A DNA stretch of 64,000 nucleotides from a virus. The position numbers and the translations under genes are program-made. Positions 28,301-47,200 of this stretch are shown in pieces. The stretch covers positions 1-64,000 of IMG/VR virus record IMGVR_UViG_3300042691_032880; one strand, written 5' to 3'. A model generated the notes under the pieces. The model saw nothing but the letters and a program-made list of their open reading frames with translations. It searched no databases and was not told the DNA's origin. Positions within the stretch are counted from its first letter, which is position 1. Each line of letters begins with the position of its first letter.

Positions 28301-31300
28301 TTTCCTTCAGCTTCTAATGCGGACAACTTCTTCTGCCATAGATTCCAGTTGGGACGGAATGTATAATACTCTTGTAGTTTCTTATACACGTCCATTGCTT
28401 CAGGATTCTTTTGACGCATGTCATAAAGTATCCTGGATATTTCAGATTCAAGATTGTCAATTTGGTCTTGTTGCAAATCAGTAAGGTACGCATCACTTCC
28501 TGCACTTCTTATGATTGCGGAAATAGTCTCTTGCAATTCGGTTATTTCAGCAATATCGACGCCGCTACCCATTTGAAGCATCAGAACTTCAGGTTTGAGA
28601 ATCGTATTGGTTTCTGCTATCTTCCATAGTACAAAGTCCTTTCTCTTCTGAGCAAGTTCAGTTCGAAGAGCATCCCTGTTCTGTCGGAGCTTATCCAATA
28701 CCACATCCTCACCACCGTTGCTTATCTCCGCATTAATCTCATCAATCCTTTCGTTCAAGTTCTTCAAGGAAACAGTGTAACTATTATAAGTTTCATAAAA
28801 CTCCTGACTTACAGGATCTACAAAGCGGCGTATTCTTTTGGTTTCTGTGACATTTCCATCTTTATCATAGCCTATTGGAACATCGACTTCTTCAACAATA
28901 AAGTTGTTTGCATTAGCCAAACCACCCATTGAGTTTATGAAGTTCTCTTTGAACTTGTCAATACCAAGTGAATCAGCCCATTTTAGGAATTCAGTCCTTC
29001 CCCTTTCCTTCATTGTGAACATGTACTTCCACATTGCGGATATGATCAATTCCGAGTTTGCATTCGCTCCGATAAAATCATCCGCGTTAAGAAATCCATT
29101 AACTGTTCCTGTAGTGCTTCCCAAATAAAATGGATGGTCTGAATTGTTGAACACACCATTGAGATACATATCGATGGTGTCGTCGTTCAGTTCATTCAGT
29201 TCAATCATCTTTCGGATTTCAGCGGCTTTCTTCTCATACTCTTCTAAAGTTGTCTGTGCACCAACTGATTCAATACCAACTATTCCTTTCAAGAACCGCA
29301 TTGCTTTCCATCCCATGGATGTATCGTTTGCAGTACCGTTTTTTATCTTGGCAATTTGATTCTCAAGGAACTTGAGTTGAGGTTCCAGGATAGCTTTCAT
29401 TTGACCAAACACACCTGCGGAAGCCAGTCCACCTTGTGTTTCTTTTATGATCGCTTTGATTACATCGCGGGATGTTCTATAATAAACATCACTGATATTG
29501 ACTATCTGTATTTCTATCTTGGAAAGGTAGTTGAGAATATCTTCCTTGATATTCTCTTCCAGAGTAGTGACAGCTCTTATGGAGTTCTTGAACATCTCCA
29601 TTGTATTAGCCATACTGCTGAGGTTCTTCATGTATGACTGAAGACTGCTTAACGCCTCATTGTTTTCTTTCGAGTTCAGTTGGTATGTTTCAGGAATGTC
29701 AATCTCGCGGATTTTCTCCTTCATGTAATTGATTTCGGAAATCATCACATCCAATGCAAGACGTATCAGATTTGCTTTGGAGAACTTACTGTCAGCCAAA
29801 CCTGAAGACTTTATGTTTGTACGTACTGCAATTATACTCGACTGCCTTTTGGTAATGGCATCAACCATTTCCGTACGACGTTCTTCTTCAATTTGTTTGT
29901 TCTGTCTTATGTTTTGCTTTTCTCTTTCCAGTGATTCATATTGCTCTTTGGCGAGTTCATCAAGACGATCTAAAATGATCTTTTGTACATCTTCGCTCAT
30001 GTGAGCAAACGGATTGTCAGCATTTTTAGGATCACTTGGAACAGAAGTATCATCAGAAATATCATCCTGAAAACGGAAACTGTTACGCGCAGCCATTTCA
30101 ACTTCGTTGGAATGAACTGGTTGGTTTGCAGGATCATAACCTTGACCATGTCCCATTATGTCCAATTCATTGAACTTACTGTATTTATATCCAGCAAGCT
30201 GTACTGTTTCTGGTTTTTTGGGATCACCTATGTACTTATATGCTAATGCCCATACGGTTCTTCCATTCACATTTAAGTTAAGCCTGCGAAGCATCTCTGA
30301 ATACACAGCAAGCTGCATGTGATATTTGGTCAGTGCGTTTCTTGCACGTATATCAGAGAACAGAATGTTTGCTCCAGGTTTGTAATTACCTTTGAAAGTA
30401 TCCATTTTCCTGAAAGTGTCCATTGGAAACACATCTAGATTTCCAACGTTTCCATCGGTTTTTTTGGTTTTCAAATCGACAATCTCGATGTTACCTTTCA
30501 AGTCTACTGCCAGGATATCAAATCGACCCAGTACGTAGTTACCATTCAAATCCTGTTGTACAACGCTGATTTCAGGAAGAAGAACCTTGTTCTCGCTCAA
30601 TAGGTTCGACATGGACGTAGCTATTTCAATAGCTGCATTACGCAAAACGTTTACGTCATAGTCTTTAAACATGATAAGGTCTTTGTTCTTGGCATAGAAC
30701 TTATCAAAGAAATCAGTGGTTGATAGTGTAATGTTGGGTTTTACACCTCCTTTAGCATACTCGTTCTGCAATTCCTCTACCATATAGTGAAAGAAGTTAC
30801 CGAAGTTTGCTCCTAACTTTGTAGTAAAGTCATTGAGGATTTGGGTATCTTCCGAACCAATGTATTTGGTTACCCCAATGGTTAATACATTTTGTTCAAG
30901 AAGACCTATCTTGTACTTTACGTTTTCCTCAAGAGTATCAATGACTTTTAATACCTCTTTATATTTGTTCTTGGCAAGGGTGGAACCTTTAGGTGTTGAA
31001 GGAGTTACCCCTGAAAGAAGATCCCTAGTCTTCTGCAATGCGACCAACTCACTTTGAGCTTTTTCCAAATTCATTTCCTTGGCGGTCTTCTTCTTGTTTC
31101 GAGGAGAAGCTCTATCCAAATCCTCCCTGTCTTCGGGATTGAAGTCTGCTCCTTCTACATTATCTGTACTGTAGTACATGTAGGGATCAACCTCTGGAGC
31201 ATTGAACACCATGCCATCAGTATTGATCATTTGAGCAATCGTGGCAAGTTTTGTTTCAGGGAATAAGGTATTTGTCTGTAACAATTCAGACAACCATTCG

Positions 31301-32271
31301 AAAAAGCGTTCAATCAGTTTACCTAATGCTGACTGTTTCCTTCCTTCAGGAGCTTGTTCCAATTCCGCTTTCATAGCGGTAGCCAAGTTCTTTGATATGA
31401 ACTCATGCTTGACTATGGTTTCAGGATTACTTAAACCTTTGGCTGAGTAATGCCTACGAAGATTCAGTATCTCAGCTGCAAACCTGGGATCATCCTTGAA
31501 TGCATTGAAAAGACCTGTGAACAAAGCTGGACGGTCTTGACGAAGGACCTCAACAAAAACGTGCATTACCTCTTCAATCGCGTCCTCAGGTATCACCCTA
31601 CCCTCAACAAGAATGATTTTATTGTTGCGAACATAAGCACGTATGGACGAGATAGGTTCGTAGTGATTGTTCTGATTCAGCTCATTCGGATTGATCCACT
31701 GGTAAGAAAGACCCTTGAACTTACCCACCAGATAATCCATTATAGGATTGATCTTTTGCTTTTGTAATTCAATCTCTTTCTTTGAGTATTTAATCGGTCC
31801 TTGGTTCTTATATGAAGGAAGAAACTTTATACGCGCCATACCTGGTAAAGAGTAGTTACGTTCAAGGTCTATCTTCACATCAGGAAACCTTTTTTGAAAA
31901 GCGGCTTTGAATCTAAGTACTTTAGCTTCAGGTTGCCAAGGATCTTGACCAGGATGAAACTCATGCCAGTTATAAAACTGTTGCTTTATGATCTTATTGA
32001 TCTCCGATGGAAGATAAAGGATGTTTTCCAACAGAGGTTCCCCGTTGTCATCCAGCCTTAAGTTTGTAACTCCGTTACGCCAGTCACCATGTCTTTGTAT
32101 AAACTTGTTGTTATAGGCTATGGACCAAGCTCTTAACGCTGCTCTTTCATCTTGTTCAAAGAAATCTTTGGCACTTTGATACAAAAGTGAAGGTTTTCCA
32201 TTAGGAGCTAATACCTGTTTACGGCTCTTGGTGGTTTCATCGTGTATTATTGAACACTTACTATTATCCAT
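25390..32271 (-). CDS. Giant virion protein with PD-(D/E)XK nuclease domain, 2,293 aa
   Basis: The start MDNSKCSIIHDETTKSRK leads into a domain ending in EEVMH (233-237), which lines up with the HExxH metal site of the 3,987-residue neighbour but has Glu in place of the first His, so it looks like an inactive zincin. Residues about 500-720 contain a RecB/Cas4-like nuclease: GRFDILAVD (D585), IEIVDLKTKK (D599, K601) and HMQLAVY (Q653). Long coiled coils follow (about 760-1,000 and 1,200-1,650). Near the C-terminus are several Gly-rich and hydrophobic parts (MAARELMLGYLALQLYYVL). It is next to the virion RNA polymerase gene and probably enters the cell with it. Confidence 0.85.
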   Translation of the reverse strand: MDNSKCSIIHDETTKSRKQVLAPNGKPSLLYQSAKDFFEQDERAALRAWSIAYNNKFIQRHGDWRNGVTNLRLDDNGEPLLENILYLPSEINKIIKQQFYNWHEFHPGQDPWQPEAKVLRFKAAFQKRFPDVKIDLERNYSLPGMARIKFLPSYKNQGPIKYSKKEIELQKQKINPIMDYLVGKFKGLSYQWINPNELNQNNHYEPISSIRAYVRNNKIILVEGRVIPEDAIEEVMHVFVEVLRQDRPALFTGLFNAFKDDPRFAAEILNLRRHYSAKGLSNPETIVKHEFISKNLATAMKAELEQAPEGRKQSALGKLIERFFEWLSELLQTNTLFPETKLATIAQMINTDGMVFNAPEVDPYMYYSTDNVEGADFNPEDREDLDRASPRNKKKTAKEMNLEKAQSELVALQKTRDLLSGVTPSTPKGSTLAKNKYKEVLKVIDTLEENVKYKIGLLEQNVLTIGVTKYIGSEDTQILNDFTTKLGANFGNFFHYMVEELQNEYAKGGVKPNITLSTTDFFDKFYAKNKDLIMFKDYDVNVLRNAAIEIATSMSNLLSENKVLLPEISVVQQDLNGNYVLGRFDILAVDLKGNIEIVDLKTKKTDGNVGNLDVFPMDTFRKMDTFKGNYKPGANILFSDIRARNALTKYHMQLAVYSEMLRRLNLNVNGRTVWALAYKYIGDPKKPETVQLAGYKYSKFNELDIMGHGQGYDPANQPVHSNEVEMAARNSFRFQDDISDDTSVPSDPKNADNPFAHMSEDVQKIILDRLDELAKEQYESLEREKQNIRQNKQIEEERRTEMVDAITKRQSSIIAVRTNIKSSGLADSKFSKANLIRLALDVMISEINYMKEKIREIDIPETYQLNSKENNEALSSLQSYMKNLSSMANTMEMFKNSIRAVTTLEENIKEDILNYLSKIEIQIVNISDVYYRTSRDVIKAIIKETQGGLASAGVFGQMKAILEPQLKFLENQIAKIKNGTANDTSMGWKAMRFLKGIVGIESVGAQTTLEEYEKKAAEIRKMIELNELNDDTIDMYLNGVFNNSDHPFYLGSTTGTVNGFLNADDFIGANANSELIISAMWKYMFTMKERGRTEFLKWADSLGIDKFKENFINSMGGLANANNFIVEEVDVPIGYDKDGNVTETKRIRRFVDPVSQEFYETYNSYTVSLKNLNERIDEINAEISNGGEDVVLDKLRQNRDALRTELAQKRKDFVLWKIAETNTILKPEVLMLQMGSGVDIAEITELQETISAIIRSAGSDAYLTDLQQDQIDNLESEISRILYDMRQKNPEAMDVYKKLQEYYTFRPNWNLWQKKLSALEAEGNPAAIERFHQNNSDYVPTEEWNEQISKIYEKLAELGTQDEELKEINQEMSKLRSKAFVRGKFNYKYLNEEEILRYEELELQRERRKDELREENEDAEFDPDIQARKNALFTQLKTLRKEVLRSDFAKDYKEKRMQVVRLYNNLQQMYRERDQKESVDRAFLDKILDEENQYNRHVDEFITFFNKHSRVKFSGDRDSIAKGMALNEQWGQHLYHFIPANEKDMELVPNKKYRIKVLKDNAYNPDYQESYTKNRFSRGNYPMPKGIRLNPDTNMFEISKDAKYANPKFKAILGNNTASEFYSKWVIEQYLMKQKNASGTPLGFSLPFVQQLGFDNLVSKGMEGAVREMKSKVDELSYAGSELEKASNESGLMGENRILFKENYEVSADLTTTNGIEAIVNWNAGYYLNLQMAQLNVIMGSSIDWLKEEQRKMTARGTDEATLYAGKLQTIINQIEFNKNKFVFGQIYEKGYEVEQQQSVINRKNLRILTSVAAFSRMAFDVGLQAGNLISGNIQQYLSLSSTRHATEGDYLKAKKEFYMRFMPSMMRDWGKISDAGFETKLIRFLNPLTKNLDRMMDANTAGKMRRLANRTFNVGDLSMMIQDKGEVEIGVTTALMILINRRYEVFETDAEGNPIIENGVKKIKKDASGNNVYINGIDAFKLENNSIAIRKDVNLSMKEVEDLKVLIMTEIYRFQGNYSTDTRTRFGSTLPGTLFEFYRKYLVPAISARFQGAFADTYRGVGSSFGWATNEAYMGWWTATAKMVRYYGFFKGAKSFIVDGIASFPGIASLGGGRLSKGIRETFKTGIEPSDAYRSRASMAARELMLGYLALQLYYVLRAALWEKDDDEELTWTELQLYRALVKATNETRSMNPVFTVGKPQDYLTTFGQFTTAFKEGETIINLGNNAFYFMDYSLTGDEKSYELGYYKQNTIYFEEGDPKVLKNLYDLLGISNVIDTFDPEPRAKEMTKPKK

Positions 32272-32274
32272 CGT

Positions 32275-35200
32275 TTAAGGGTTTTTACACTTGTTCTCTT
32301 CCTGTTCTATTTGATCATCCATATCCTTGATGGTAATTCCATCAGGTCTGTTTTCCAATGGATTATACACAGAATTTACAAGATCATACACAAATATATA
32401 CGATTCCCCTTTCATAAAACCCTCAAATCGCGAATCATTTTTGAGAGCATCCCAGGTCGGAGTATTGAACATGATTCTAGCAAAGTTGTCGAACCTTTGA
32501 GGATCATTCTTAAACAAAACTTCAGCATACGTTTCATCCAAGGGATTATACTGAATGATTCTTTGAGTCCTAGGATCATAAGCATAACGATAAAATTGTT
32601 CTTGGGTAGTAACCTTTGATCCATCCATTCGAGTAAGCGTCCTTCCTGCAATAGCTGAACTAGGGGTTTCCGACTCAGATAGCTGATATGCCTTATTGAT
32701 CTGGGGTATGACATTCACTGAATCAGGAAGCTTGATTTCTCTCATGATTGTAGTAGACTGAGGCTTCGTATTGATCATATTATGAATCTCAGCACCCTGT
32801 TGATTATTGAATGCAAACGGAGAAATCTTTGAAGTACCTTGTTTCACAACTGTTTCATACTCAGCTGATTTACCCCTGAGTTCTAAAGCATTACTTCCGA
32901 TACCCATTTCTGTTTCTAAGAGGGTATTTATAAATGTCTTACCTATACCCTGACCATCGATCTTTTTAAGGACCATGATTTGACCATAGATGTTGGTCTT
33001 ATACAGTGGGAACTTGAATCCATCCTTAAAATTACCTTGAATATCCGCAGCTCTTAAAAGCATTCTTACATCATCTGCAGTTTCATCTGTTATATCTGGT
33101 ATGGTTATAGTGAGCTTTCCTGTAACATCAGGTGTATACAGATCATAACTGTTGGCTTTTGCAGTTGCAGCTACACCACCTCTAATCTGAGGTCTGCTTA
33201 TTGTGATTTTTGCTTCATCTTTCAGTTTGTCTTTGAACTCACGTTTTGCAATGATAAACTGGTGATTATCAGGAGTAACAGTCTCAAAGAACTGAACAAA
33301 CTGTTCATCTGATATATTCTCGAACTTATCACGTCTTATTAGACTTGTCTTTTCTTCAACAGACTCATCGTTAAGACGCATGCTTACGATCTTGGATATG
33401 GATTCTGTAATCAAATCATCCAATTTCATTCCGCCGAAAGTATCCGAGAATATAGAGTCGATTGCATTTTGGTACTCTGTTTCCGCAGCTTCGGGAAGAC
33501 TATATGTACCATCTTGATTATCAATCTCTTTGTGTTTTGATAAAATAAGTTTATCAAGATCAACTAGTCTCTTTTGCAACTTCCATATGCCTTCCGCCAT
33601 TGGTCTGGACAAGAAGGAAGGAAGAAGGTCATAGTATCCACCAACAGTCATGTTGCCACCAGCTTTTATCATACCGTGGTATGCTATCCTGAAAGCTTTT
33701 ATCTTTTCATCTACATTTGGTGACTCTAAGAGAAACATCAAATCCGTAAACGCTTTTTCCTTTCCACTTGAACCCAGTTTGGACGTGGCTATTTCAAGAA
33801 CCTTCATTCCTGATCTAGGAGGTCCTATATTAACTGTCTTTATAGCCAATAAGAATTCGTTGTTCGGATATGCCTTGAGGAGACTGTGGTAGTCAGAAAT
33901 GACCTGTCCTCCCAGGAAGTTTTTGGGATCCAATTGCTCAAGATATATCTGAGCAGCAACACTATCCTTCTTTTCCTCAAGAGCGGAACGTTGGATTTGC
34001 ATTGCAAGGAATGACTTCAGATCCTTGCGGATATCCATTACATCATATCCATATTCCGTATTGAATAATGAAACCAATCCTTTCATAAAGCTTGTACGTT
34101 CCATCATGATCATTCTGGAAACATCGCTCATGTACATAATGGATTTCATATTCTCATCCAACACAGGATATGTCTCAAACAGTTTCTCCATCGTAGCCTT
34201 GGTAAAGAACTTGAGTTTACCCGCCTTGGCTTTGGTATAATCATTAACCAACGAGTCAAACCTGTCAAAATCAGGACGTAATGCTTTGAGGGGATCCGTA
34301 AGTTTGGTTATACCAAAACTTATCTCATTACCAAACTGCAAATACTTATTGAACTCGTTGAGCAATATGAGATTCTCGATTTCCATGGACACAGGTAGTC
34401 CTTTGGAATCTTCAATCCTGTAACCGAAGTTATCAATCGGTACCGTACCTGTAGATATCTGTTCCTGGGTATCAGGTTTGATATCATCATTGTATATGAT
34501 CTTATACGAATCGGAAACCAGTGTACCATCAGACATCAGTCCTCGATTTATCAGTTCAGAGTTAAGCTCCTTTTTAATAGAATCGAGTCTTTTGGTTATG
34601 AATTTTTGCAATGATACCCTGAACCTACGCTGCGTACTGGAATATGCGCTACCATAAGTCTGGTTGTATTCAGTTATGATATCCTTGATTACAGGCAATG
34701 ACTGGAACATGATTGCCGCCATCTTTGGAACCCCTGAAGCAAGCATTGAAGCAAGTACAGGTGTAGTAGTCCTATTCATATTCAAAGGACCAGGGTATGG
34801 ATTATTGGCAGCATCCGCATATATACCGATAAGACTTCCCACAAGTTGGACAGCATCATCCACTATCCTATCTGTTGTAACCTTTTGAATCTTGGTGGAA
34901 GTCTTTCCTGTTTTAGGATTGGCTTGTACGATTTCCTGGTAAAAAGAATTGGTTATGTTAGATACCATTTCCGCGTTAATCGTAGCTAACATGCTGACAC
35001 CTTTGTTGAAACTTGCAGCTATACCCAAAGAGTCCTTGGACTCGGAGTTGAGCGAACGTGCAACCGCAAGAGCGGTAGGAGTGTAAAGATTCTGCTTATT
35101 GTAAATCTCTTTTTCACTCAAACCTCTTCTCTCAACTGCGTTTTTATAATCATCAACTACAGCATCAGCACGCATACCCGTATCGGCAAAGAATCTGTCG

Positions 35201-38200
35201 AATACCTTTTCATTTGAAAGGATTCTGACCTTTGCATCAAGTGTATCATTGAGAATGATTTCTGGAACAGGATTTGTCTTGGTTTGAGTGATATACTGAA
35301 CCAATTGTCCAGGACTGGCTGGCAACGATGAAGCTTCGAGTTCACGTAGTATATTAGCCGTAGCTATTAACCTTTGGAACGGAATGAGTATTTTCTTGTT
35401 CTGTTTTGTTTCAGGTTGATCGAGAATGTCGGCATTTTCATTGAAATACTCTTGCATTTTTCCTCCCTCGAAGTATTCTCCAAAGGCGATTGCAGACTCT
35501 TTCATATAACCTGTCTGGTTCTTGATCTTACGAACCTCTTCGTTAACCTTGTCTTCCAGCAACTCATCATTGCTCATTGAAGTCAGATACTCAATGAACT
35601 TGGCTTCTGGAACACTCATACCATACTTTTCTATATAGTGACTGTATTCACCATAAGGAATCCTGGTTCCATCCAGTGCGTAGTATGATGCTTTGATATA
35701 CGCATAAAGTGTATCGATATCAAAGTCAGAACCTGCCAAAAGGTGGATTTGGAATGGTGCAGCGATGTTGCTACCATATGCCTCATCCATGTAATCCACC
35801 ACTTTTGCCACGAACATGCTTCGTCTATCCTCAGTAGGAATACGAGTCGCAAAGAATTCGGAAAGATATTTTTCCAAAAACGCCTGATCAACCTTTTCAA
35901 GTTCCCTTGGGACTATTACTTCAAAGGTGTATTTCTTTATCTTTTCCTTGGTCTTAGGATCAACAACTTCTTCCACACTCATATTGAGATAGCGGCTTGT
36001 TGCCTTTTCATATTTCTTAGGATCACGTTTGTAATCCATTCGTTTGACAATCTGACCATCCATTTCCATTACTGGGAACAGGATAGGACTGACATGGTAA
36101 TACTTACGACCTTCGATCTTCTTATCATATATGTTCTTGTTGAACATGCTGAAGAAATAGTACACCATGATCCTCTCCAACCTAGGCATATCTGGAGGAT
36201 TGATAGGTTGATTTTTGGTGGTGTCCAACTCGAAGTACTGGAGAATGCTGGCATCCGCTCCTTGTTCTTTCAAACCCGCGGATATGTTCGCATAAAGCTT
36301 TTTGATGATGTTCTTGTCATTGGTATTGAACATCCTCTTCATACGCTCGGTCTGTGACTTTACAAAGTCAGCAAGACCTTCCTGGTATGCTTCCAGATCC
36401 TTACGTATCTCCTTGTATCGAGGATCATCCTTGCTCATCTGACTTATAAGAAGAAGCTTCTGTTGGATACCTGATGTAACCTTCTTGGTGATTTTGGATG
36501 TTTCAACCTGCAGATAAGTCAAATCGTTGGGTACGTTCTCCACTGCACTTTCCAAATCAAGATAAGCACCAGGACGAGCGTCTTGAGCCATATCGAAGTT
36601 CAAAGGAGCAACTGTGGATTTTTTACTGGAAGTAGGATCATAAACCTGCTCTATCCTATGAAGCTCCATTGAGTTGAGCATGTTATGAAGGAATCCACCT
36701 AGCGGTCCTTTCACAGCAGGTCTATAATAAGAGTGTATCTGCTGCATGATACCCATGTAACTTTCAACCAGCGACTTTGTCATGTCTTCTTCTTGCGGTT
36801 GACCAGATGTAAGTTTCATGAAATCATAGTCAGACATTTCTGGATCATATGTAAGTGGTTCGTTACCAGCACCTGACTCTATCAGCATTGCGTAGTAATC
36901 CGCTTGAGCATAAAGATCTTCCAGCTCTTTCATTGAGGTTTCATAATTCAAACCTTGACGAAGCATACTGACTTCTTTCCTTATAAGTGTATGCTCAGAC
37001 TGTTTGATTGTAACCATAGGTGCTGCAGTCAGAGACTTCACACTGTTGAATACAATTCCTGCTTCACGCAACTTCTCTACACCTTCCCTGTATTCTTTTG
37101 TGGAACGCGTTTCAAAACGCATCCTCTTCATTATTTGCATCGAGTCATAGTCCAAAAGTCCTAAAGAGTCTGCAATACGCATCCTCCTATCCATTGTATG
37201 AATGGATTGACCGTCAAACGGACTGATCTTCCTATTACTCTTAAGTGGTTTGCCATCTTCATCCAAGAAAGGTGTCGGCTGCATCGGTTTGCTCAAGTCA
37301 GCATTATCCAAATACATTACGATCTCCTTGATAACGGCGCTTCTGTAAGTCTTGGTATTTCCATATTCCGCCCTTGATGGATCGTATATGTTGGAACCAG
37401 AAGCAGCACCTGACTTCTGACGCTTAAAGAAGTTGGCAAAATCTTTTACACCTACGGCAATAGGACCATCAAACAACTGGTTAACAAACATGCCGTTTAC
37501 CCAGGTATTGGCAAAGAAATTCCTTTTGAATTGTTCTGGACTAGCTGTAAGTGGAAGATCAACATCTTGAACACCTATCTCTGACAGATAGGTTTCAAAC
37601 CTTTGATACTGCTCATTCACATATGAATCTATTGCCTTTACTATTGCAGTCTTACTTGATGGATTGGAAAGAATAGCATCGAAAGGTGTATTGTTTCTTG
37701 CTAGATCTATCAGATCTTCACGCAAATCTATCCTTTGTCCCAAAGCGGAATCTATCCGTGTAGGATCAACGTTCACGCCGAACATGTCCGATAATACATT
37801 GAAAGTGAATCCTCTCAGTGAATTACCATTCTCATCTTTCTCTGAGGTATTGTATCCTTTGTATCTTCTTACACCCTCCTCATTTAACTCCTTGAAGTTT
37901 TTCAGCATCAAATTATACTCTTGACGCATCATTTTCATGACGTGATCAGTCACCAGTTTCACGTTGTTTCTAGATACTGGATTTCCCTTTTCGTCATAAT
38001 AGTTGGTAAATAAGCCATCCACAACAATACTGGTACTAGTAGCCTCGTATTGCGTAAGTATACGTTTGAACGTAGTAAGCTTTTCTGTTGTACCAGGAAT
38101 AACGGTTTCAGTCATCTTGGTGAACAAACCGAACATAGACAACATATATGCTTTATCATCAATTGTCTTGAACGTACTGGTTTCACCTTCTTTGAACTGC

Positions 38201-41200
38201 TGAAAGATATTGAAGTTCTGACTGAATCCTGCAAATGCACCAACACTCAAGTTCTCCAAGAAGAACTTTAATACTGGAATATCAGCATTGAGCATCGGAT
38301 TGTCCCTGAAATATTCGGTCATCCCCATGTAGTCCTCATTGATCAGCTTGTTCAAACCTTCCTGGATATCGATTTTTCCAGTAACAGAGTCAAACATGCT
38401 TTGCAGTTTCATCATTACTACATAAGCAGGTGTAGCTTTTACATACTTGTTGACTAGGTTTCCATTGGCGTCCCTGGTAACAGAACCTGAAATACGAGGA
38501 TTATATTTCATAATGAACTCACCCATTGAGTCAACATAGGCGGTAAGGAATCTCTTTAAGTCATCATCGGTGATGCCTCTTTCAATCTGTTTTTGCCGTT
38601 CCTTATCGGTACGTACTGCAGATTTGCTCATCAACATCTTTAACTGGCTAGACCAGAAAGAGTAATTGAGGTTTTTGATTTCCTTAATCAGGTTTTGATT
38701 TGCACGGAGTATCATCCTTAACTCACTATCCGAGTGGAACATATTGACATTCCCTCCCAAACCAACAAACGCTTGTAAACCTAATGATGTATAAATTACA
38801 GAATAAGGTATATTAAGATTGAACTTCGATACTGCAACATAAACCTTGTTTACAAAAGAACGGAACTTGGCATCATTGAACATGCCGTCTTCTGTCATAA
38901 ACTCCTGTTTAAGGTTCTTTTCATTTCTGTAAGTAACAGTGATTTCATCCAATACATCTAGACTTGGTTTGATTTCATCCATTCCAAATCGCATATTGGT
39001 AACCCTTTCACGCAGGTCATTGCGAATCTTGTTTATGTCACCTTGTACTACGATGTCACTTACATAGTAATCTTGTCCAGTAGCTACAAACCTTTTGTTT
39101 TCAGCATCCCATTCCTGTTTGGTTTTCAATTGTACCTGCATCAAACGAGCGTCCACTGTGTTAAACACATCCTGGAACATGACCAATATGTGTTTGTTCT
39201 TGGTAGCATATCCCAGTGGATTCATGCCAACGCTGTCAACCAACACGTTGTAAACAGCTTTGAGCGAATCACGCAAGTCAATCATATCCGTTATGTCATC
39301 AGGAGTACGGATACCGTTCTGTTCAATCTGTGATTGCAACTCATCATTGTACTGGAAAATGTCACTTTCCAAACGCTGTATCTCTGCAACAATTCGAGGT
39401 ACAATCTCCTCCTTCTGCAGGTTTGCAGTTATCTTTCGGATAGTACTGAATATCAGTTTGCTATCAATCATCCTGGTTCTAGTGATACCAACCTTTGAGT
39501 CATAATACTCATAGGGGATATACTTGAACATCATTCTAAAGTACGCACTTCCTTCATATGGAGCTTTGTTAGCAAAGCCTGCATCAGCAAACTGTTGTCC
39601 TGACTCTTGTTCATCATCCTCCCGTTTCAATGTTGCATCCAACTCATCCATATCCATTTCAATGGAGTCCTTGTACACGGAGTTATACTCCTCCATGATA
39701 CTGTTCATGAACTTGGTAGCATTGAATCTACTGATATTTGTCTGGACTTTGTTATTGACTATGGGATTGTTTTGATACTGGAGGTTGCCTGTATAATTAC
39801 GATACATAAAGGTTTCCCCTTCTTCATGCAATGCTCCCAACAACCATCTGGTACTATCGTATTGAAACCCGTATCTTTCGATTATCGCAGCCTTGTTTTC
39901 AGGATTCTTTGCAATAAGGTTTTCAATCTTGTATTCTTCCAGTATACGCTCTCTTGCAAGATTATAAACAACGTTATCCCGCAAGTCAGGTTTGGCTGTC
40001 TTGATCGACGCCATATAATAAATCATTTTATCACTGACCTCGGATACCACTCCTGAAGGTATTACCTGATTACCAAACATCAGCTTGTTGTTCCGATCCA
40101 TGGTGAGGTAAGGTATACCTTTGAAATCCATACTGTAAAGACGTTCAACATCCGTAGTCCTTTCACGAACTTGTGCGGTTTTGAACCTTCCCAACGTGAT
40201 ATCATAGAAGAGGTTGTCAATCCGACCACCTTTCTTGAACAGGTTCAACAGCTTCTTGAGGTATGCGAACAGCTTCTGCATCCATGTCCTGGGAACCTTG
40301 TTGTCCGCCATGAATGACTGGAATGAGTCAGCCAAGTATTCTTCATATATCAGATCCTTGATCTGGCTATCACTAAGGTGAACATAACCCCGCTGTTTAC
40401 GGAATTCTGATGCATACACCTTGCGAGAACCAACCTGGATGTATTTTCCTTTGCCATCTGTTTTGTAATCACCTAGTGTTTCACCTGCTTTCTTCAAGTA
40501 ATATGTTTGTTGTTCGGGAGTCAAAAGTCTCCTGAATACAACGTGGAACGTCTCGTGATAAGCTACACCCTTCGCCTTCAAAGCATCATTTAAGGCTATC
40601 ATTTCCCCTTGAAGATATCCTAAGGCATGTCCGTCGACATTGACATCTTCAAAGTTCTTTCTTACAAATTCAAACAGACTGGGAATAAATTCCTTTGCTG
40701 TTTCTATCTCTGATAAGAAATCCTCTTCACTCAAAGCCAGGAATCCTTCCAAAGATTCAACTATGCTGAATGCAGTATCATCAATCGCATTACCTTCAGA
40801 TAGCGTATTAGGATCGATATATCCTGGTCCAGGTTCTGATATGATTCCAGGATCGATAGCTGGCTCTGAATGGTCTACATTGATGACAGGAGATGATATA
40901 TCGCTTGAAGGAGTCTTGGAAGCAGGCCTCGATGCCTTCATCCTGACGGTACTGGGAAGAACCACCCGTTTTGCAGTATCCTTCCTTGAAAGATTCAACT
41001 CATTGTTCTGAGTTGTTTTGACCATCACATAACTGTACAGCTGGTCAAGCTTTTCACCCCTGCGAAATACCCTTAGAGACTTACCGCTAAACAGTCCATA
41101 AGTCATGAACTTATCAGTCAATAGTCCTCCACTGACTCGACCATTGCTTACATTGGTATCGTAAGTGTTTATGACCTTGGAAAATCCATTTGATATCTCA

Positions 41201-44200
41201 TCTGTGAACTTTGAGTAGGTTTCAAACAGTTCATTCAATGCAGGAAACGATACAGGAGTGACAAGTCCAGCAGTCGATGCCTCTCTACTGACATCTTCAA
41301 TGGACATGTCCTTGGTTATTTTGGTACCTGTATAATCAAGAACCTTGTTCAGGTTATCATACAGCTCATTGAGGGTATCCCTGTTGAGTTTGATGTTGAA
41401 GTTTTTCGAATAAGCGTTGAATTTTTCAACCATCTCATCCGTATTCTTTTCATTAGGAAGCATTGTGAACTTTATACCAAAGGTCTTTTTGTCACCTACT
41501 TGGCTAAGAATCACAAACTCCGCTCTTATTCCGTCTATGACGTTGAAACCCCAACCATTCTTGTCGAGGTCTATCATTGCGGTATTACCCTTTTCAATGG
41601 ACGCGTTTTGGAATGCATGCAGCATTGTGGCGATAAAGTCCACCATATCTGCAGGACTATTCACCATCTCCTTTGGTATCATGGGTTCTGCAACTGGTTT
41701 CAAGGTATCCTTTACAACCTTGAAATTCAAATACGCTGCAGTCCATGTGGGGAAGTTCTTCATGTACTCCGCCACATTTATACCAAACTCCCCTTTCAAA
41801 TAGGAGTCTATTGTCAGATACGTCTTTCCCGATTCCCCAATGATTTTCTTGTTTATTGGTGAGGCCGCGTTGAGTGTCAGCGTATCAACTATCTCCCATA
41901 CGTTCTTCGTTTTACGAACTACTATAGGAATCCTTTCTTCCGCAGGATCACCCATCAACTCACCAGACTCATTGTACTTCTGGGTAACCATAGGTAAGCG
42001 TCCTTCAAATGCTTTTATATGCTGAGCTAAAGGTGCACCTTCTTCATCACCTTTATACTCGAGTTTGTTAGGACTGTTGGTAAGATCGTAGTATTTGAAA
42101 AAGATATCTCGTATGTCAACATTACTCTGATCACCAGTGCTTTCCAATCTTCTGGTTACTTCCATTTGGAAAGCCTTGTATGTATTAATCGACTTCTTGA
42201 GTTCGTCTAACTGTGCTTCGGTAATATCCTCGGTGTAACGATAAATGTCAGTAACCGACTCAAAAGCCTTGTCATTCCTGATTCGTATCATGTTCCTGAG
42301 CATCTCGACATGTGTATTGTTGTCGATGTCAAGGGGAACCACCGTATTGTCAGGATAAACAAATGCAAGATTTGTCAGTGGATCTATTTCAAATGACTTA
42401 TCCCCTTGAGGATTTGTCACTGTAATGGTAAATCCCTCGATGGGTTTGATGAATGTAAGAATCGGACCTTTGCCTTCTTGCAAAGCTTGTACTTGTACAG
42501 GAAGTTCAGAGGTCTCAATCGTACGTTGAGGATAAGCCGCACGTATTCTTTCAAGTCTTTTCCTATTGAAGTCTACAGTTTGGAAACCAGCTACAATCCT
42601 GATAGCATCATAGAAACGCATATCAACAGGCAATGTTGAAGCTAATTCATCTCTTACAAGTTTTTCTGATAACTCTTCCTTTTCAGTACCTAGTATTAGA
42701 CCTGTAAGGACATCACCCAACTTCATTCTTACCTGTAATGTTTCCTTATCAATGGTTTCACCATTATCTTTTTTGTAGATTGCAGTTATCTGGTCACCTG
42801 GTAGTCTTTCTATTTCTGTTTCATGTATTTCAGGATTTGAAGGATCATAGTATATGTATCGTTTATTTACAGTATCATATCCAGCCTCAAACTTTTCTCC
42901 ATTTGCTCTTCTAAATTCATATAATGGTCGATTTTTATAAAAACCGATTCCTGGAACTTTAGGAAGGGGTATGTACATCTCACCTTCCTCTTTTCCTTGA
43001 CTCCTTTTCTTTATCTCCTCGTTTATGACATTCCCGATTGTGACCTTGGAGGTACTGTCTTTTCTGGAGTTTACTTCTCGCAACGCATTTTCCAAATACG
43101 CAAGCGCCATGTCCGAGGTTATACTTTCCTTATTCGAATCAATAAGCGTCACAATATTTTTGAAAGTATCCAATAAGTAGTTGTCCGCTACGTCTGCAAG
43201 ATCCGCTATCTCGGAAGCTATGAGTTCTTGAGTTGTTGGTGGAATGTCTTCTACTTCCACAGGAGCTGCTGGTGCAGTAGTAGGTTTACCTGATACAAAC
43301 TCCTTAAATCCTTCTATAGTTGGGTTATTAGTAGTTTGTAAGTATTGAGAGTATATTTGTAGAGCTTGTTGTTTTTGTTGTGGGGTTACATTTCTAATTT
43401 CATCAGAAGTTTTAATTCTAAAAGCTCTTTCTTGAGTTACAAAACTGTCTGGATATTCTTCACTTGCTTTACCAATATCTCCTATTTTTTCAGCATATCC
43501 TTTTTTAACTAATGAATTTAATAGTTGTATTTCTTGACTACTGTTTTGATAATCAGAATATAAATTACTGTTGTAGTCTTTCTTAGCTAAATCTGACATT
43601 AGAATATGAACTATTTGTCCATAGCCTTTATTCTGATATTCTTCATTAATTTCAATAGATAGTCCTAATTGTCCTTTTTCCCCATTATTTACAAACTTAA
43701 CTCTACCTATTTTTTTATTATTAAGCTGGATAGACATCCAACCAACACTTGTTTCTTCTGATAGTGTTATTCCTTTAGTATCAAATGTAGATTTATTAAA
43801 CCCTAAAGCTTCATATACAGCATTAGCTAATTCAGGATTGGATTCAAACAGTTCTAATACACCCTTTTTTACTTTTGTAGTTACAGTAGGAGCAGGAGTT
43901 GCAGGTGCAGGAAAAATACTTTGCAGACCTTTCTCGCTTGTAAGTATATAGGAATAGTCAAAAGGTATCTTACCCGTAATCATAGGTTCGATAAGCTGTT
44001 GCACCCGAAGATACTTTCCTTCACTCCACTCTTTCGTCTGGAGTCTTTCCTCCTTGAACGCAGCTGAATGCATGAAACCTGAATAATACCAGATGGCATG
44101 CATCTTAGCCTCTTCAGGAATGTTCAGTTTCAGCACATCGTTTATGACAGCTGAAAGATGTTTATACTTGTTGATGTCTTTTCGGAAAGCGTTGAAGAGC

Positions 44201-44238
44201 GTATCTTCAAGGTTGCTTGCGGGAATCCTACAGCTCAT
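32275..44238 (-). CDS. Giant virion RNA polymerase, 3,987 aa
   Basis: The DFDID metal-binding motif at 2838-2842 (in LAGSDFDIDTLYAYIKASYY) is the catalytic signature of the YonO-like RNA polymerase of crAss-like phages, known from phi14:2 gp66. A second conserved segment, SPFDGQSIH (2339-2347), lies where another polymerase barrel is expected. The first 1,330 residues are extra: an AT-rich GNAT-like insertion (about 128-325) and a zincin-like site HETFH (1228-1232) with a possible third ligand in EEYLADSF (1299-1306). By the phi14:2 precedent it would be packaged, ejected and would transcribe early genes. At nearly 4,000 residues it is much longer than phi14:2 gp66 (about 2,180). Confidence 0.92.
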   Translation of the reverse strand: MSCRIPASNLEDTLFNAFRKDINKYKHLSAVINDVLKLNIPEEAKMHAIWYYSGFMHSAAFKEERLQTKEWSEGKYLRVQQLIEPMITGKIPFDYSYILTSEKGLQSIFPAPATPAPTVTTKVKKGVLELFESNPELANAVYEALGFNKSTFDTKGITLSEETSVGWMSIQLNNKKIGRVKFVNNGEKGQLGLSIEINEEYQNKGYGQIVHILMSDLAKKDYNSNLYSDYQNSSQEIQLLNSLVKKGYAEKIGDIGKASEEYPDSFVTQERAFRIKTSDEIRNVTPQQKQQALQIYSQYLQTTNNPTIEGFKEFVSGKPTTAPAAPVEVEDIPPTTQELIASEIADLADVADNYLLDTFKNIVTLIDSNKESITSDMALAYLENALREVNSRKDSTSKVTIGNVINEEIKKRSQGKEEGEMYIPLPKVPGIGFYKNRPLYEFRRANGEKFEAGYDTVNKRYIYYDPSNPEIHETEIERLPGDQITAIYKKDNGETIDKETLQVRMKLGDVLTGLILGTEKEELSEKLVRDELASTLPVDMRFYDAIRIVAGFQTVDFNRKRLERIRAAYPQRTIETSELPVQVQALQEGKGPILTFIKPIEGFTITVTNPQGDKSFEIDPLTNLAFVYPDNTVVPLDIDNNTHVEMLRNMIRIRNDKAFESVTDIYRYTEDITEAQLDELKKSINTYKAFQMEVTRRLESTGDQSNVDIRDIFFKYYDLTNSPNKLEYKGDEEGAPLAQHIKAFEGRLPMVTQKYNESGELMGDPAEERIPIVVRKTKNVWEIVDTLTLNAASPINKKIIGESGKTYLTIDSYLKGEFGINVAEYMKNFPTWTAAYLNFKVVKDTLKPVAEPMIPKEMVNSPADMVDFIATMLHAFQNASIEKGNTAMIDLDKNGWGFNVIDGIRAEFVILSQVGDKKTFGIKFTMLPNEKNTDEMVEKFNAYSKNFNIKLNRDTLNELYDNLNKVLDYTGTKITKDMSIEDVSREASTAGLVTPVSFPALNELFETYSKFTDEISNGFSKVINTYDTNVSNGRVSGGLLTDKFMTYGLFSGKSLRVFRRGEKLDQLYSYVMVKTTQNNELNLSRKDTAKRVVLPSTVRMKASRPASKTPSSDISSPVINVDHSEPAIDPGIISEPGPGYIDPNTLSEGNAIDDTAFSIVESLEGFLALSEEDFLSEIETAKEFIPSLFEFVRKNFEDVNVDGHALGYLQGEMIALNDALKAKGVAYHETFHVVFRRLLTPEQQTYYLKKAGETLGDYKTDGKGKYIQVGSRKVYASEFRKQRGYVHLSDSQIKDLIYEEYLADSFQSFMADNKVPRTWMQKLFAYLKKLLNLFKKGGRIDNLFYDITLGRFKTAQVRERTTDVERLYSMDFKGIPYLTMDRNNKLMFGNQVIPSGVVSEVSDKMIYYMASIKTAKPDLRDNVVYNLARERILEEYKIENLIAKNPENKAAIIERYGFQYDSTRWLLGALHEEGETFMYRNYTGNLQYQNNPIVNNKVQTNISRFNATKFMNSIMEEYNSVYKDSIEMDMDELDATLKREDDEQESGQQFADAGFANKAPYEGSAYFRMMFKYIPYEYYDSKVGITRTRMIDSKLIFSTIRKITANLQKEEIVPRIVAEIQRLESDIFQYNDELQSQIEQNGIRTPDDITDMIDLRDSLKAVYNVLVDSVGMNPLGYATKNKHILVMFQDVFNTVDARLMQVQLKTKQEWDAENKRFVATGQDYYVSDIVVQGDINKIRNDLRERVTNMRFGMDEIKPSLDVLDEITVTYRNEKNLKQEFMTEDGMFNDAKFRSFVNKVYVAVSKFNLNIPYSVIYTSLGLQAFVGLGGNVNMFHSDSELRMILRANQNLIKEIKNLNYSFWSSQLKMLMSKSAVRTDKERQKQIERGITDDDLKRFLTAYVDSMGEFIMKYNPRISGSVTRDANGNLVNKYVKATPAYVVMMKLQSMFDSVTGKIDIQEGLNKLINEDYMGMTEYFRDNPMLNADIPVLKFFLENLSVGAFAGFSQNFNIFQQFKEGETSTFKTIDDKAYMLSMFGLFTKMTETVIPGTTEKLTTFKRILTQYEATSTSIVVDGLFTNYYDEKGNPVSRNNVKLVTDHVMKMMRQEYNLMLKNFKELNEEGVRRYKGYNTSEKDENGNSLRGFTFNVLSDMFGVNVDPTRIDSALGQRIDLREDLIDLARNNTPFDAILSNPSSKTAIVKAIDSYVNEQYQRFETYLSEIGVQDVDLPLTASPEQFKRNFFANTWVNGMFVNQLFDGPIAVGVKDFANFFKRQKSGAASGSNIYDPSRAEYGNTKTYRSAVIKEIVMYLDNADLSKPMQPTPFLDEDGKPLKSNRKISPFDGQSIHTMDRRMRIADSLGLLDYDSMQIMKRMRFETRSTKEYREGVEKLREAGIVFNSVKSLTAAPMVTIKQSEHTLIRKEVSMLRQGLNYETSMKELEDLYAQADYYAMLIESGAGNEPLTYDPEMSDYDFMKLTSGQPQEEDMTKSLVESYMGIMQQIHSYYRPAVKGPLGGFLHNMLNSMELHRIEQVYDPTSSKKSTVAPLNFDMAQDARPGAYLDLESAVENVPNDLTYLQVETSKITKKVTSGIQQKLLLISQMSKDDPRYKEIRKDLEAYQEGLADFVKSQTERMKRMFNTNDKNIIKKLYANISAGLKEQGADASILQYFELDTTKNQPINPPDMPRLERIMVYYFFSMFNKNIYDKKIEGRKYYHVSPILFPVMEMDGQIVKRMDYKRDPKKYEKATSRYLNMSVEEVVDPKTKEKIKKYTFEVIVPRELEKVDQAFLEKYLSEFFATRIPTEDRRSMFVAKVVDYMDEAYGSNIAAPFQIHLLAGSDFDIDTLYAYIKASYYALDGTRIPYGEYSHYIEKYGMSVPEAKFIEYLTSMSNDELLEDKVNEEVRKIKNQTGYMKESAIAFGEYFEGGKMQEYFNENADILDQPETKQNKKILIPFQRLIATANILRELEASSLPASPGQLVQYITQTKTNPVPEIILNDTLDAKVRILSNEKVFDRFFADTGMRADAVVDDYKNAVERRGLSEKEIYNKQNLYTPTALAVARSLNSESKDSLGIAASFNKGVSMLATINAEMVSNITNSFYQEIVQANPKTGKTSTKIQKVTTDRIVDDAVQLVGSLIGIYADAANNPYPGPLNMNRTTTPVLASMLASGVPKMAAIMFQSLPVIKDIITEYNQTYGSAYSSTQRRFRVSLQKFITKRLDSIKKELNSELINRGLMSDGTLVSDSYKIIYNDDIKPDTQEQISTGTVPIDNFGYRIEDSKGLPVSMEIENLILLNEFNKYLQFGNEISFGITKLTDPLKALRPDFDRFDSLVNDYTKAKAGKLKFFTKATMEKLFETYPVLDENMKSIMYMSDVSRMIMMERTSFMKGLVSLFNTEYGYDVMDIRKDLKSFLAMQIQRSALEEKKDSVAAQIYLEQLDPKNFLGGQVISDYHSLLKAYPNNEFLLAIKTVNIGPPRSGMKVLEIATSKLGSSGKEKAFTDLMFLLESPNVDEKIKAFRIAYHGMIKAGGNMTVGGYYDLLPSFLSRPMAEGIWKLQKRLVDLDKLILSKHKEIDNQDGTYSLPEAAETEYQNAIDSIFSDTFGGMKLDDLITESISKIVSMRLNDESVEEKTSLIRRDKFENISDEQFVQFFETVTPDNHQFIIAKREFKDKLKDEAKITISRPQIRGGVAATAKANSYDLYTPDVTGKLTITIPDITDETADDVRMLLRAADIQGNFKDGFKFPLYKTNIYGQIMVLKKIDGQGIGKTFINTLLETEMGIGSNALELRGKSAEYETVVKQGTSKISPFAFNNQQGAEIHNMINTKPQSTTIMREIKLPDSVNVIPQINKAYQLSESETPSSAIAGRTLTRMDGSKVTTQEQFYRYAYDPRTQRIIQYNPLDETYAEVLFKNDPQRFDNFARIMFNTPTWDALKNDSRFEGFMKGESYIFVYDLVNSVYNPLENRPDGITIKDMDDQIEQEENKCKNP
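43250..43870 (-). other. AT-rich GNAT-like module inside the polymerase gene
   Basis: Codons about 125-325 of the giant polymerase are clearly richer in A and T than the flanks. The encoded segment starts LELFESNPELANAVYEALGF, contains LGLSIEINEEYQNKGYGQIVHILMSDLAKK, which has the strand-turn-helix and (Q/R)xxGxG-like turn (YQNKGYG) of GNAT acetyltransferases, and ends with TPQQKQQALQIYSQYL and NPTIEGFKEFVSGKP. I recall these two end motifs flanking different inserts in other giant phage proteins. Confidence 0.55.
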
Positions 44239-47200
44239 TACTCGCAGTATGTGGAATTTTCATTAAGTGAATTGAAGGGATTGATTCCGTCATCCTTCAC
44301 AGGCGCAGCAATGGATGCGTCTATCGATTCCCGTATGTTTTTGAGTTTTTTGGAAGAGATCTTGTTTATCATGTTTGTCTCCCTTCCTATACGCATATTG
44401 ACCATTCCCGTAGTAGATGGACGGGTGGTCTTTGCGGCTGCCTTTTTACCTTTCTTTTCGAAACTGGTTTGTACCTGATCAACAGCGTCAGCTACGCTTT
44501 TCTTCTTTGCTCCCTTTTTTGGTTTAGACTCTGCTGGTACTGTCTCATCACCTCGTTTGCGTTTTGAGGGCTTACCAGCTTCAGTAGACTTCGCATCTCG
44601 TTCCTTTTTCGAAGTATTTCGCTTCGTAGCTTTTCGGTCTCTTGCTTGTTTGGTTCCATCCTTGTCTTTTTCTGTAAGTAAGGTATCAATAGGGTTTATG
44701 TATTCCTTGGTAAGCTGTGTAAGGAATCCATTGACAATCGGATTGTTAATGTAAATACTCCACTGTTTCTTTATCTTCTTCCTAAGGTCACCTGCCCACA
44801 GTGCTAACTCAACGAGTTCATCTGCAGTCATTTGACCTCTTGTCTCTGAATTACCAAATTTAGTTCTTAATTCAGTAATATTATCAGGAGTATTGACATT
44901 TATTATCTTGTTCAGCTTGAACTGGTCCATTATCTCCTGACGCACTCTCTTGGTCGTCGACTCTTCGGTAATGACCGTATCTATAGCTGCAATTGCCTCA
45001 TCCAACGCATCACTCATGTCTTGCATATCCTGAGGATCAGTAGGCACCTCAGGCATTGCGAAGTTGATAAAGGCATTGACTACCGCAGCATACTGTTGTC
45101 CCTTATCGGAATTACGAACGCTTAAACGCTGGGGAATCATTTTGACGTTCTTACCCTTGCGTCTTTCCTGTTGCCATAAGAATGCACTCAGTTCTCCAAG
45201 TTCATTATACTCAAGGGTATAATATATACCGTTTATCTGAACAGCTGTAAGTTGCTTTCTTCCTGTAACTTCATCAAAATCAAGGAAATAGTCTACAGCA
45301 AGCTCTCCTTCTTCGGTAGCTTCAATGACAGGATTAGGATTAGGAGAAACAACTGCCGCATTCTCAGGAGCCAGCATTGGATATGCTAGACTCAAACCAT
45401 CGTAGTCATCAGTAGTTGTCTCTTCATTTGACTCTGGTAGACTGGTAACTGCACCATCAGACCATTCAATCGTGAATGCTCCTTCAGGAGTCATTCGCAA
45501 TGTACCACTCTCACCATTCAGAACAACTGTCTGGTCAACATGATTTATAAGCTTCTTTTTCTCATTGTCAAGTTCCTCGACCAACTCTGCACTTTCCCGT
45601 TCCGTAGGTTTGTTCAAAGCGGCTTGGTATTCCTGGTATTTGATTTCTTCAATTACATCCAAGTACTGCCTTAACTTCTCAAAGTTGTCGATTGGAACTT
45701 CGCCTTCACCTGCGATAAGTTCATAGGTCGCAGGTATTGTAACAGTATCAAATGCGATACGGGAACCATCAGGATGCTGATAATGGCGATTTATAGTACG
45801 TTGTGCAGGGTCGCTGCTATCATAAGGAAATCCGTCTGCAAGCTCATCAAGGTTATAACGCATTGCAATGTAAGCGTCAGCTTCATCATATTTGTTTGCG
45901 TCATAAAGATCATAGACCGATATTGGCAGTTTGCTGCGTGCAATAGCTATATCTTCCTCACGCTTAGCTTGTTCCTTTTTGATTTCCTCTTGAGCCTCTT
46001 TGAACATTCCCAGAAGAAGTTCATTCTTCTTCTCTACCAGGTTGTTCATGATCTCCTGTAACTTGTTATAGTTCTTATAGGTACCGTACGGGGTCTTGCT
46101 GAACTCAAGCAAATCCTGCATCAACTTCTGGGTATCCTCGTTTTCAAAGAACTTCTGTCCCTCACTACCGAGTTCCTTGAGCATGTTCAACTGATCGTAG
46201 AGCAATCTTGCATGCGCACCTGCTCTAGCATCCATTGAGTTCTCATAGAACTTGGTCATGTTATCTGGATCACTCAGCAGATTGACCGCCTGCATGTATT
46301 CGTGATGATCCTTTCCAAGAGTTATGTAATCGTATATGTCAGTGATTGCAGAGTAAACCTCCTCCTTGTTTACAACAGAAGTCAATCCCGCCTGTTTGTT
46401 TTTCAAAGCAAGGTATTCGGCAAGGTTGTCTGCCACACTCCTCATTTCTGAGTTTATCCTCGATGCCTTTGGACGAGTGTAACGAATCTTATTGTCAGGA
46501 TTGTTGGGGTCAACCTCCTCGACACTTTCATACATCTCATCTTTTATCTTTTCCAGGAGTTCAATCTCCCTTTGCTTAGAGGCTATTATGTCCTTGGCAT
46601 TCTGATCCAGAATACCAGATTCCTGCAATGACTTTATCTCGTTGTTGAGTATCAGAACCTGGTCAGATATTTCCTTTGAATCCACAATGGTATTCCAAGA
46701 ACTAGCCAGACTATTACCGATACTTTTGAGTTGACTGACTCTTCTGATTATCTCCTCACTGCGTACTGTAGCCTGTTGTCCTTTGGCTTCAGCAAATGCA
46801 ACCGTTTCAATCGCATCCATCAATGCAGCCTTGCGGATGCTGTACTTCATCTTGGATGAAGGATCCTTCATGTATTCATCCAGACTCAACATCAAACCGT
46901 ACTTGGTCTGATATTTGTCATACAACTCACTGAAGGTATTCACATTGGATGCGATTTCATCCATTACCTCCTTTGGAGAGGATTTCTTCAAGTCCTTGGG
47001 TGTGTAACCGAAAGCCTCCTTGAATTCTTTTTCACTGAAGTTTTCACCGTAACCCTTTAGGAACTGGTACATGTAATCCATTGTACCTGTACGCTTTGCA
47101 TACATGACCGCCTGTATGAGAGCGGAATCCTTGTTGTTGAAGTATTGGTATTTATTACCGTTTGCAACCGCATCACGCATGTTCTGACCATATTCGGTCT

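Follow-up and report, generated by a model that had tools for sequence, protein, structure and literature searches.

Podoviruses face the problem of threading polymerases that weigh hundreds of kilodaltons through a channel of ~35-45 Å, in order and in the right ratio. The virion RNA polymerase (vRNAP; gp50) of phage N4 is a giant ejected polymerase with an HExxH domain (PMC5512222, PMC12633501). In 2017 Iyer et al. described polyvalent proteins, which are injected and combine several domains, among them zincin, GNAT and ART-like modules, and proposed autoprocessing for a zincin fused to an N4-like polymerase (PMC5512222). Among crAss-like phages, phi14:2 gp66 (6VR4) represents the polymerase core, the crAss001 homologues gp47, gp49 and gp50 are virion proteins by mass spectrometry (MS) (PMC10172136), and p-crAssphage gp45 is labelled in GenBank "putative RNAP associated protein fused to zincin protease". 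Here we analysed a stretch of 64,000 nucleotides (the window; positions 1 to 64,000 of IMG/VR record IMGVR_UViG_3300042691_032880, which has 125,114 bases in all), and in particular its open reading frame (ORF) of 3,987 amino acids (aa), which contains an RNA polymerase (RNAP). With a probability of about 0.68, we propose that this ORF is the middle of three cargo links, which would be joined head-to-tail by disulfides between cysteines (Cys) at their ends and would leave the virion as a single thread.

The three adjacent cargo ORFs are as follows:

44238..49133, minus strand: link 1, 1,631 aa; its sole Cys, the penultimate residue, is residue 1630 (codon 44244-44246)
32275..44238, minus strand: link 2, the zincin-RNAP ORF, 3,987 aa, uninterrupted, with a variable N-terminal slot, a zincin and an RNA polymerase
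25390..32271, minus strand: link 3 (the last), 2,293 aa; its sole Cys is residue 6 (codon 32254-32256) and its C-end has none

Link 2 contains Cys only at residue 3 (codon 44230-44232) and at residue 3984, fourth from the end (codon 32287-32289). Altogether, the 7,911 aa (1,631 + 3,987 + 2,293) hold four Cys, each at most 6 residues from an inner end; the cargo links are nearly Cys-free except near the ends that meet another link. The 72 other genes of the window phage contain 1.39% Cys, and Cys on both sides was found in one of its 66 adjacent non-chain gene pairs. Link 1 homologues at the same place in the nearest relatives (L015-L018) end with ..NCNM, ..ICKR, ..FCKL and ..FCKL, respectively. 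The initial annotation, which had been concerned with the enzyme-like domains of link 2, missed this cysteine pattern, the main anomaly of the locus.

Each described system resembles the window in part. The polymerase core of phi14:2 gp66, its DxDxD motif and its place with gp65 and gp67 among virion cargo genes are as in the window, and so is the three-link Cys pattern (gp67 ..NTIC, gp66 MAC..QECK, gp65 MSC); phi14:2 differs in having separate genes where the window fuses the zincin region to the polymerase, and its gp67 has no HExxH. The Suoliviridae cr1_1, cr4_1, cr114_1 and cr6_1 likewise possess a giant ORF with YHExxH 1,430-1,540 aa before GxDFDxD, followed by the last cargo ORF, whereas in the window the chain break lies further upstream, a GNAT-like segment is present and the last link lacks a second zincin. 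In p-crAssphage gp45/gp44 (BK010471), the zincin also stands directly before the polymerase with Cys on both sides of the break, but the break falls between zincin and polymerase, and the polymerase is fused to the last link. N4 vRNAP differs more: its polymerase is T7-like, its zincin lies on the C-terminal side, and it is a single chain free of Cys, while the window has three proteins with end Cys. The polyvalent proteins share the injected multidomain character and the zincin, GNAT and ART-like modules; end-cysteine linkage is unmentioned in their description, from which the word 'cysteine' is absent (PMC5512222). An open-literature search found no paper describing an end-cysteine chain, which may nevertheless have been mentioned before. 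We know of no described counterpart to delivery by a disulfide-joined thread.

The cysteine layout was then counted in 39 crAss-like genomes; additions to this survey were eight published genomes, picked by polymerase similarity only, and 23 IMG/VR genomes, which were extended, and the crAss002 polymerase was excluded from the tally. Each of the 121 inner ends has a Cys no more than 12 residues away (C-ends 59/59, N-ends 62/62), as against none of the 72 outer ends (N-ends 0/34, C-ends 0/38), giving a Fisher p of 7e-55 with shared ancestry ignored. Phi14:2, crAss001 and other published phages have the same layout as the window, and for nine reference chains the summed log10 probability is -47.5 when Cys positions are taken as random within each protein. 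In crAss001 the end Cys are Cys2339 of gp47, Cys5 and Cys2404 of gp50 and Cys5 of gp49. Terminal Cys are also present in 43 of the 44 closed C-ends of IMG/VR zincin-RNAP ORFs. Because the outer ends never have Cys, pairing across the junction fits, while end-to-end twins do not. This bears on the alternative that terminal Cys dock without a head-to-tail disulfide, through crosslinks between equal ends of copies or through a shared metal site. A virion may hold each cargo protein in several copies (PMC10172136), and two Cys alone cannot prove each one's partner; yet the outer ends are free of Cys, and a single Cys per end is too few for the usual zinc site, so that we consider such docking unlikely.

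Two sequences first appeared to break the rule and were dismissed as exceptions. The sole closed C-end without terminal Cys is the 3' end of the L034 zincin-RNAP ORF, where an overlapping frame carries ..FHKCKK near the end, suggesting a frameshift or a sequencing error. The annotated start of crAss002 gp33 (L129:10653-23390) is probably too far upstream, as an in-frame MSCTPSNP lies ~33 residues within the annotated N-end.

The places at which the chain is broken into genes vary, and so do its members. The break lies upstream of the zincin in the window clade and, at other distances, in L084, L089, L026 and L117; between zincin and polymerase in Steigviridae and Intestiviridae; and after the polymerase in Suoliviridae and most others. 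On the RNAP tree, the states upstream, between and after need at least 2, 3 and 1 changes, respectively, and each break, wherever placed, has Cys on both sides. Accessory links of 660, 148, 1,198, 205, 711, 256, 257, 289 and 1,695 aa, inserted in single genomes and by BLAST mostly unrelated to each other (few partial matches), have Cys at both ends as well. Non-cargo genes within the operons, namely GIY-YIG-like homing endonuclease and ferritin-like genes, have no end Cys; the small ferritin-like gene was seen between cargo links in the G017 cargo block (L111) and in G023 (L124-L125). Where genes lie on opposite strands (crAss001, DAC15 and cr106), reading the Cys gives an order (gp47, gp50, gp49) that matches the fusions of the Suoliviridae and the window.

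The same observations make it very improbable that the pattern is a by-product, with ejected proteins shedding Cys generally and the terminal Cys left as neutral remnants or as codon-level signals of gene borders. Such shedding is real: N4 vRNAP has 0 Cys in 3,500 aa, and the proteins that N4 and T7 eject are almost devoid of Cys without forming such a chain. Hence, the purge is general and the paired ends are special to Crassvirales, and general loss leaves the placement at inner ends only (121/121 against 0/72) unexplained, as it does the Cys on both sides of new breaks and new links. A border signal in the DNA was rejected, since the terminal Cys codons vary (TGT 53, TGC 19), so that the pattern is not a fixed DNA word, and since opposite-strand genes obey the rule.

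From this pattern we infer one disulfide per junction, between the C-terminal Cys of one link and the N-terminal Cys of the next, by which separate proteins would become one covalent thread. Once packed, the thread would be drawn through the tail with its N-end in front, after which the reducing cytoplasm of the host would free the links; towing and release by reduction are likewise inferred. Fusion of genes and a Cys pair would be two routes to the same connection, and any Cys-bounded protein could join, so that accessory enzymes such as GNAT could enter either as further links or by fusion. Internal Cys, we propose, were purged because mis-pairing would follow. The cargo of the window chain would be a GNAT-like module, a zincin and an early-transcription RNA polymerase in link 2 and a PD-(D/E)XK nuclease in link 3. 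For Crassvirales as a whole we favour, with slightly more reserve than for the window, a split polyprotein with several enzymes as cargo: its links, translated separately, would be joined at each junction by a single disulfide into a thread several thousand residues long, which is ejected whole and dismantled by host reduction. Other structural disulfides are resolved in the crAss001 virion, and N-to-C ejection with partial unfolding was proposed for gp45 (PMC10172136).

Several points weigh against a disulfide-tied thread. The bond is deduced from a sequence pattern, which crosslinks between the same ends of copies, or metal binding, may also explain. With hosts that may be anaerobic and with assembly inside a reducing cytoplasm, oxidation could only happen at a late stage. 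The cysteine counts ignore shared ancestry, and N-terminal starts in unannotated IMG/VR loci were picked by eye. A few internal Cys are kept in some chain members, mainly of Intestiviridae and cr116. Finally, p-crAssphage gp47 (L001:5042-7615; 857 aa), which is not part of the chain, has a single Cys at its penultimate residue, and its neighbour gp46 has no Cys, leaving no visible partner.

The chain could be tested in cultured phages, among them crAss001 and phi14:2, perhaps from data at hand, since published MS of crAss001 compared reduced and non-reduced virions. If true, the end-cysteine code sets the order of links, explains why proteins are fused in one phage and split in another, and lets the leading end tow the rest. 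The Cys rule offers a sequence rule for finding cargo proteins and correcting gene starts, as for crAss002 gp33, and points to modular cargo swapped among phages; the thread principle, if true, could inspire the ordered delivery of several proteins.

The polymerase portion of link 2 is marked by two features:

35401..36633, minus strand: RNA polymerase core region, residues 2536-2946, for which a profile with relatives matches 6VR4
35713..35727, minus strand: DFDID metal-binding motif, residues 2838-2842, its three Asp invariant in 37 aligned sequences

The initial annotation had called the protein a crAss-type virion RNA polymerase from its DFDID motif, and the sequence comparisons agree that it is one. 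Residues 2246-3413 alone match crAss-like polymerases of an annotated phage collection with E down to 7e-8, and a profile of residues 2536-2946 and 36 relatives matched PDB 6VR4 (phi14:2 gp66) with E=4.6e-38, through the DFDID region. GSDFDID spans residues 2836-2842, and the 3,987-aa protein has no other DFDxD match. In the PDB sequence search, neither the single protein nor the zincin profile gave a match, whereas the RNAP profile did; peptide patterns found nothing closely related over the full protein. L015-L018, its nearest relatives, group with the window in a single clade (100/100 in the RNAP tree) and are 32-35% identical to it in the polymerase region. The first DxDxD motif of their polymerase core reads GSDLDID in two and GSDKDID in two, so the F of DFDID is not fixed. 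The window phage belongs to Crassvirales by its terminase and by homology of the cargo block. The best matches of its large terminase subunit, TerL, are crAss-like phages at only ~25-28% identity over 80-90% of the length, which makes it a divergent member.

Two aspects of link 2 as a whole that the initial annotation stressed are not special. Its length, given there as almost twice that of phi14:2 gp66, is not exceptional for the group: p-crAssphage gp44 has 4,070 aa, the longest IMG/VR relatives have 5,200 aa, and a review puts the upper end at ~6,000 aa (PMC10136315). The union of protease and polymerase in one polypeptide stands insofar as both the zincin and the RNAP are there, but a unique fusion was rejected, this being a common crAss-like architecture. 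Suoliviridae cr4_1, cr1_1 and cr114_1 have single ORFs of 4,272-4,551 aa with YHEA[FW]H and GxDFDxD, and most of 80 IMG/VR loci from the zincin profile consist of one ORF of ~3,800-5,200 aa. The zincin is upstream and about 1,400-1,950 aa from DxDxD in most IMG/VR relatives. The window protein is a new, divergent member of an already known kind.

The zincin itself is delimited as follows:

40189..40770, minus strand: zincin-like metallopeptidase domain, residues ~1157-1350, from an AlphaFold2 model and alignments
40543..40557, minus strand: HETFH, residues 1228-1232, the only HExxH match in the protein
40339..40341, minus strand: Glu1300, probable third zinc ligand, invariant in relatives

The suggestion of a HETFH zincin site with a possible third ligand 67 residues further on is supported by alignment. 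The candidate is the EE pair 1299-1300, 67-68 residues past His1232. E1299, E1300 and A1303 are invariant in 58/58 IMG/VR relatives, and H1228, E1229, H1232, E1300, A1303 and F1306 in all nine sequences of an alignment of the window with eight published phages; relatives thus keep the H, E and H residues together with Glu1300. The zincin profile search, which returned 178 hits, demanded YHE[AT][FW]H, and conservation of HExxH in that set is therefore partly built in; the Glu ligand and the genomes selected by RNAP are independent of this requirement. The AlphaFold2 model of the zincin has a mean pLDDT of 80, exceeding 90 around the active-site and Glu helices. Its order is H24-35, E43-47, E57-63, E66-70, H78-91 (HExxH) and H143-165 (Glu); helix, three strands, HExxH helix and Glu helix is the core defined for polyvalent-protein zincins (PMC5512222). 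The region around 1228-1306 is thus predicted to have zincin topology. Foldseek with this model found nothing significant in the PDB; in BFVD it found crAss-like proteins with E to 8e-7 and, weakly, M48 and IrrE (E 0.27-1.5). The zincin fold and its ligands are likely on the model and alignments, and the zincin of the window protein is probably active.

Whether such a zincin cuts its own polypeptide or its cargo partners, at packaging or after ejection, can be judged from its distribution. In favour, its residues are conserved, its modelled fold is right and it lies directly before the polymerase, with ~1,400-1,700 aa from HExxH to DxDxD in most relatives. In addition, autoprocessing of such domains was proposed by Iyer et al., and P1 DdrB undergoes processing ahead of packaging (PMC5512222). 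However, the domain is widespread but not universal: it occurs in cr6 and cr108, whereas the first chain proteins of DAC15 and cr106, like phi14:2 gp67, contain no HExxH. CrAss001 gp47 has the zincin close to its C-terminus, and the polymerase is encoded separately, as gp50, on the opposite strand. As Steigviridae such as crAss001 keep the zincin beside a separate polymerase gene, self-cleavage is not needed to explain the fusion, and separating zincin from polymerase cannot be the only job of a zincin that persists where a gene break already divides the two. N4 vRNAP, which also bears a zincin, is packaged uncut (PMC5512222). We therefore find cleavage of the chain by its own zincin rather doubtful; the zincin would most likely act after delivery, on cargo or host proteins.

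The GNAT-like segment proposed for the N-terminal part of link 2 is located as follows:

43333..43899, minus strand: GNAT-like mobile cargo module, residues ~114-302 of link 2, from sub-threshold GNAT matches

Four GNAT families match weakly but consistently (E 0.007-0.14), all below the cut-off; the best, FR47, has E=0.0068 and 16.8 bits against a curated family cut-off of 22.1. An acetyl-CoA-type motif, QNKGYG, is present. The model of the segment, built from four sequences only, has low confidence (pLDDT 47), and its order of strands and helices is compatible with a GNAT fold. The same slot holds a P-loop-like segment in the sister genomes L015 and L016 and nothing in L017 and L018. A GNAT module 82-88% identical to that of the window occurs in three other crAss-like phages, though the polymerases are only ~20-35% alike: in L117 as a separate Cys-bounded link of 256 aa, and in L118 and L119 inside other cargo proteins. 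By sequence comparison, the GNAT-like segment is cargo that moves between phages, part of a larger protein in the window and elsewhere a link of its own between two Cys. These findings bear on the possibility that the zincin, like GNAT, is an injected effector acting on host proteins, a role put forward for polyvalent proteins and compatible with the disulfide-tied chain. In injected polyvalent proteins, both domains are typical effectors (PMC5512222), and the GNAT module moves between phages in a variable slot; the zincin, unlike GNAT, is fixed before the polymerase, suggesting a role in the cargo itself. An effector role for the zincin is a serious possibility, if less likely than not.

Two further features lie next to link 2 in the window:

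30454..30816, minus strand: PD-(D/E)XK nuclease segment, residues 486-606 of link 3; Pfam PDDEXK_1 E=4.9e-6, over the cut-off
49136..52027, minus strand: gene upstream of the chain, 963 aa, zero Cys, outside the chain; at the crAss001 gp46 position by gene order only

In last and accessory links, a motif C-x-N..[FW]xxL recurs at the N-terminus after the Cys (L012:17392, the 660-aa ORF of L095, L117:1842) and is perhaps a docking helix. A second HExxH lineage (ILHExxH..) occurs in the last links of L006 (gp65), L012-L014 and L120-L121, and the last link of the window is without it. Motifs resembling the ADP-ribosyltransferase-type (ART) module known from polyvalent proteins (..RTKAFKEWFG / ..WFGDW..VYHGT) were seen in the cargo ORFs L003:6996-15245 and L011:7605-15161 and in the GNAT-bearing ORFs of L118 and L119. 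In cr116_1 (L134:14765-15606) and cr108_1 (L136:15155-15446), a break falls exactly at the DxDxD motif of the polymerase gene. Its cause is probably an intron, accompanied in cr116_1 by a likely homing endonuclease, and the C-terminal exon keeps the expected end Cys.
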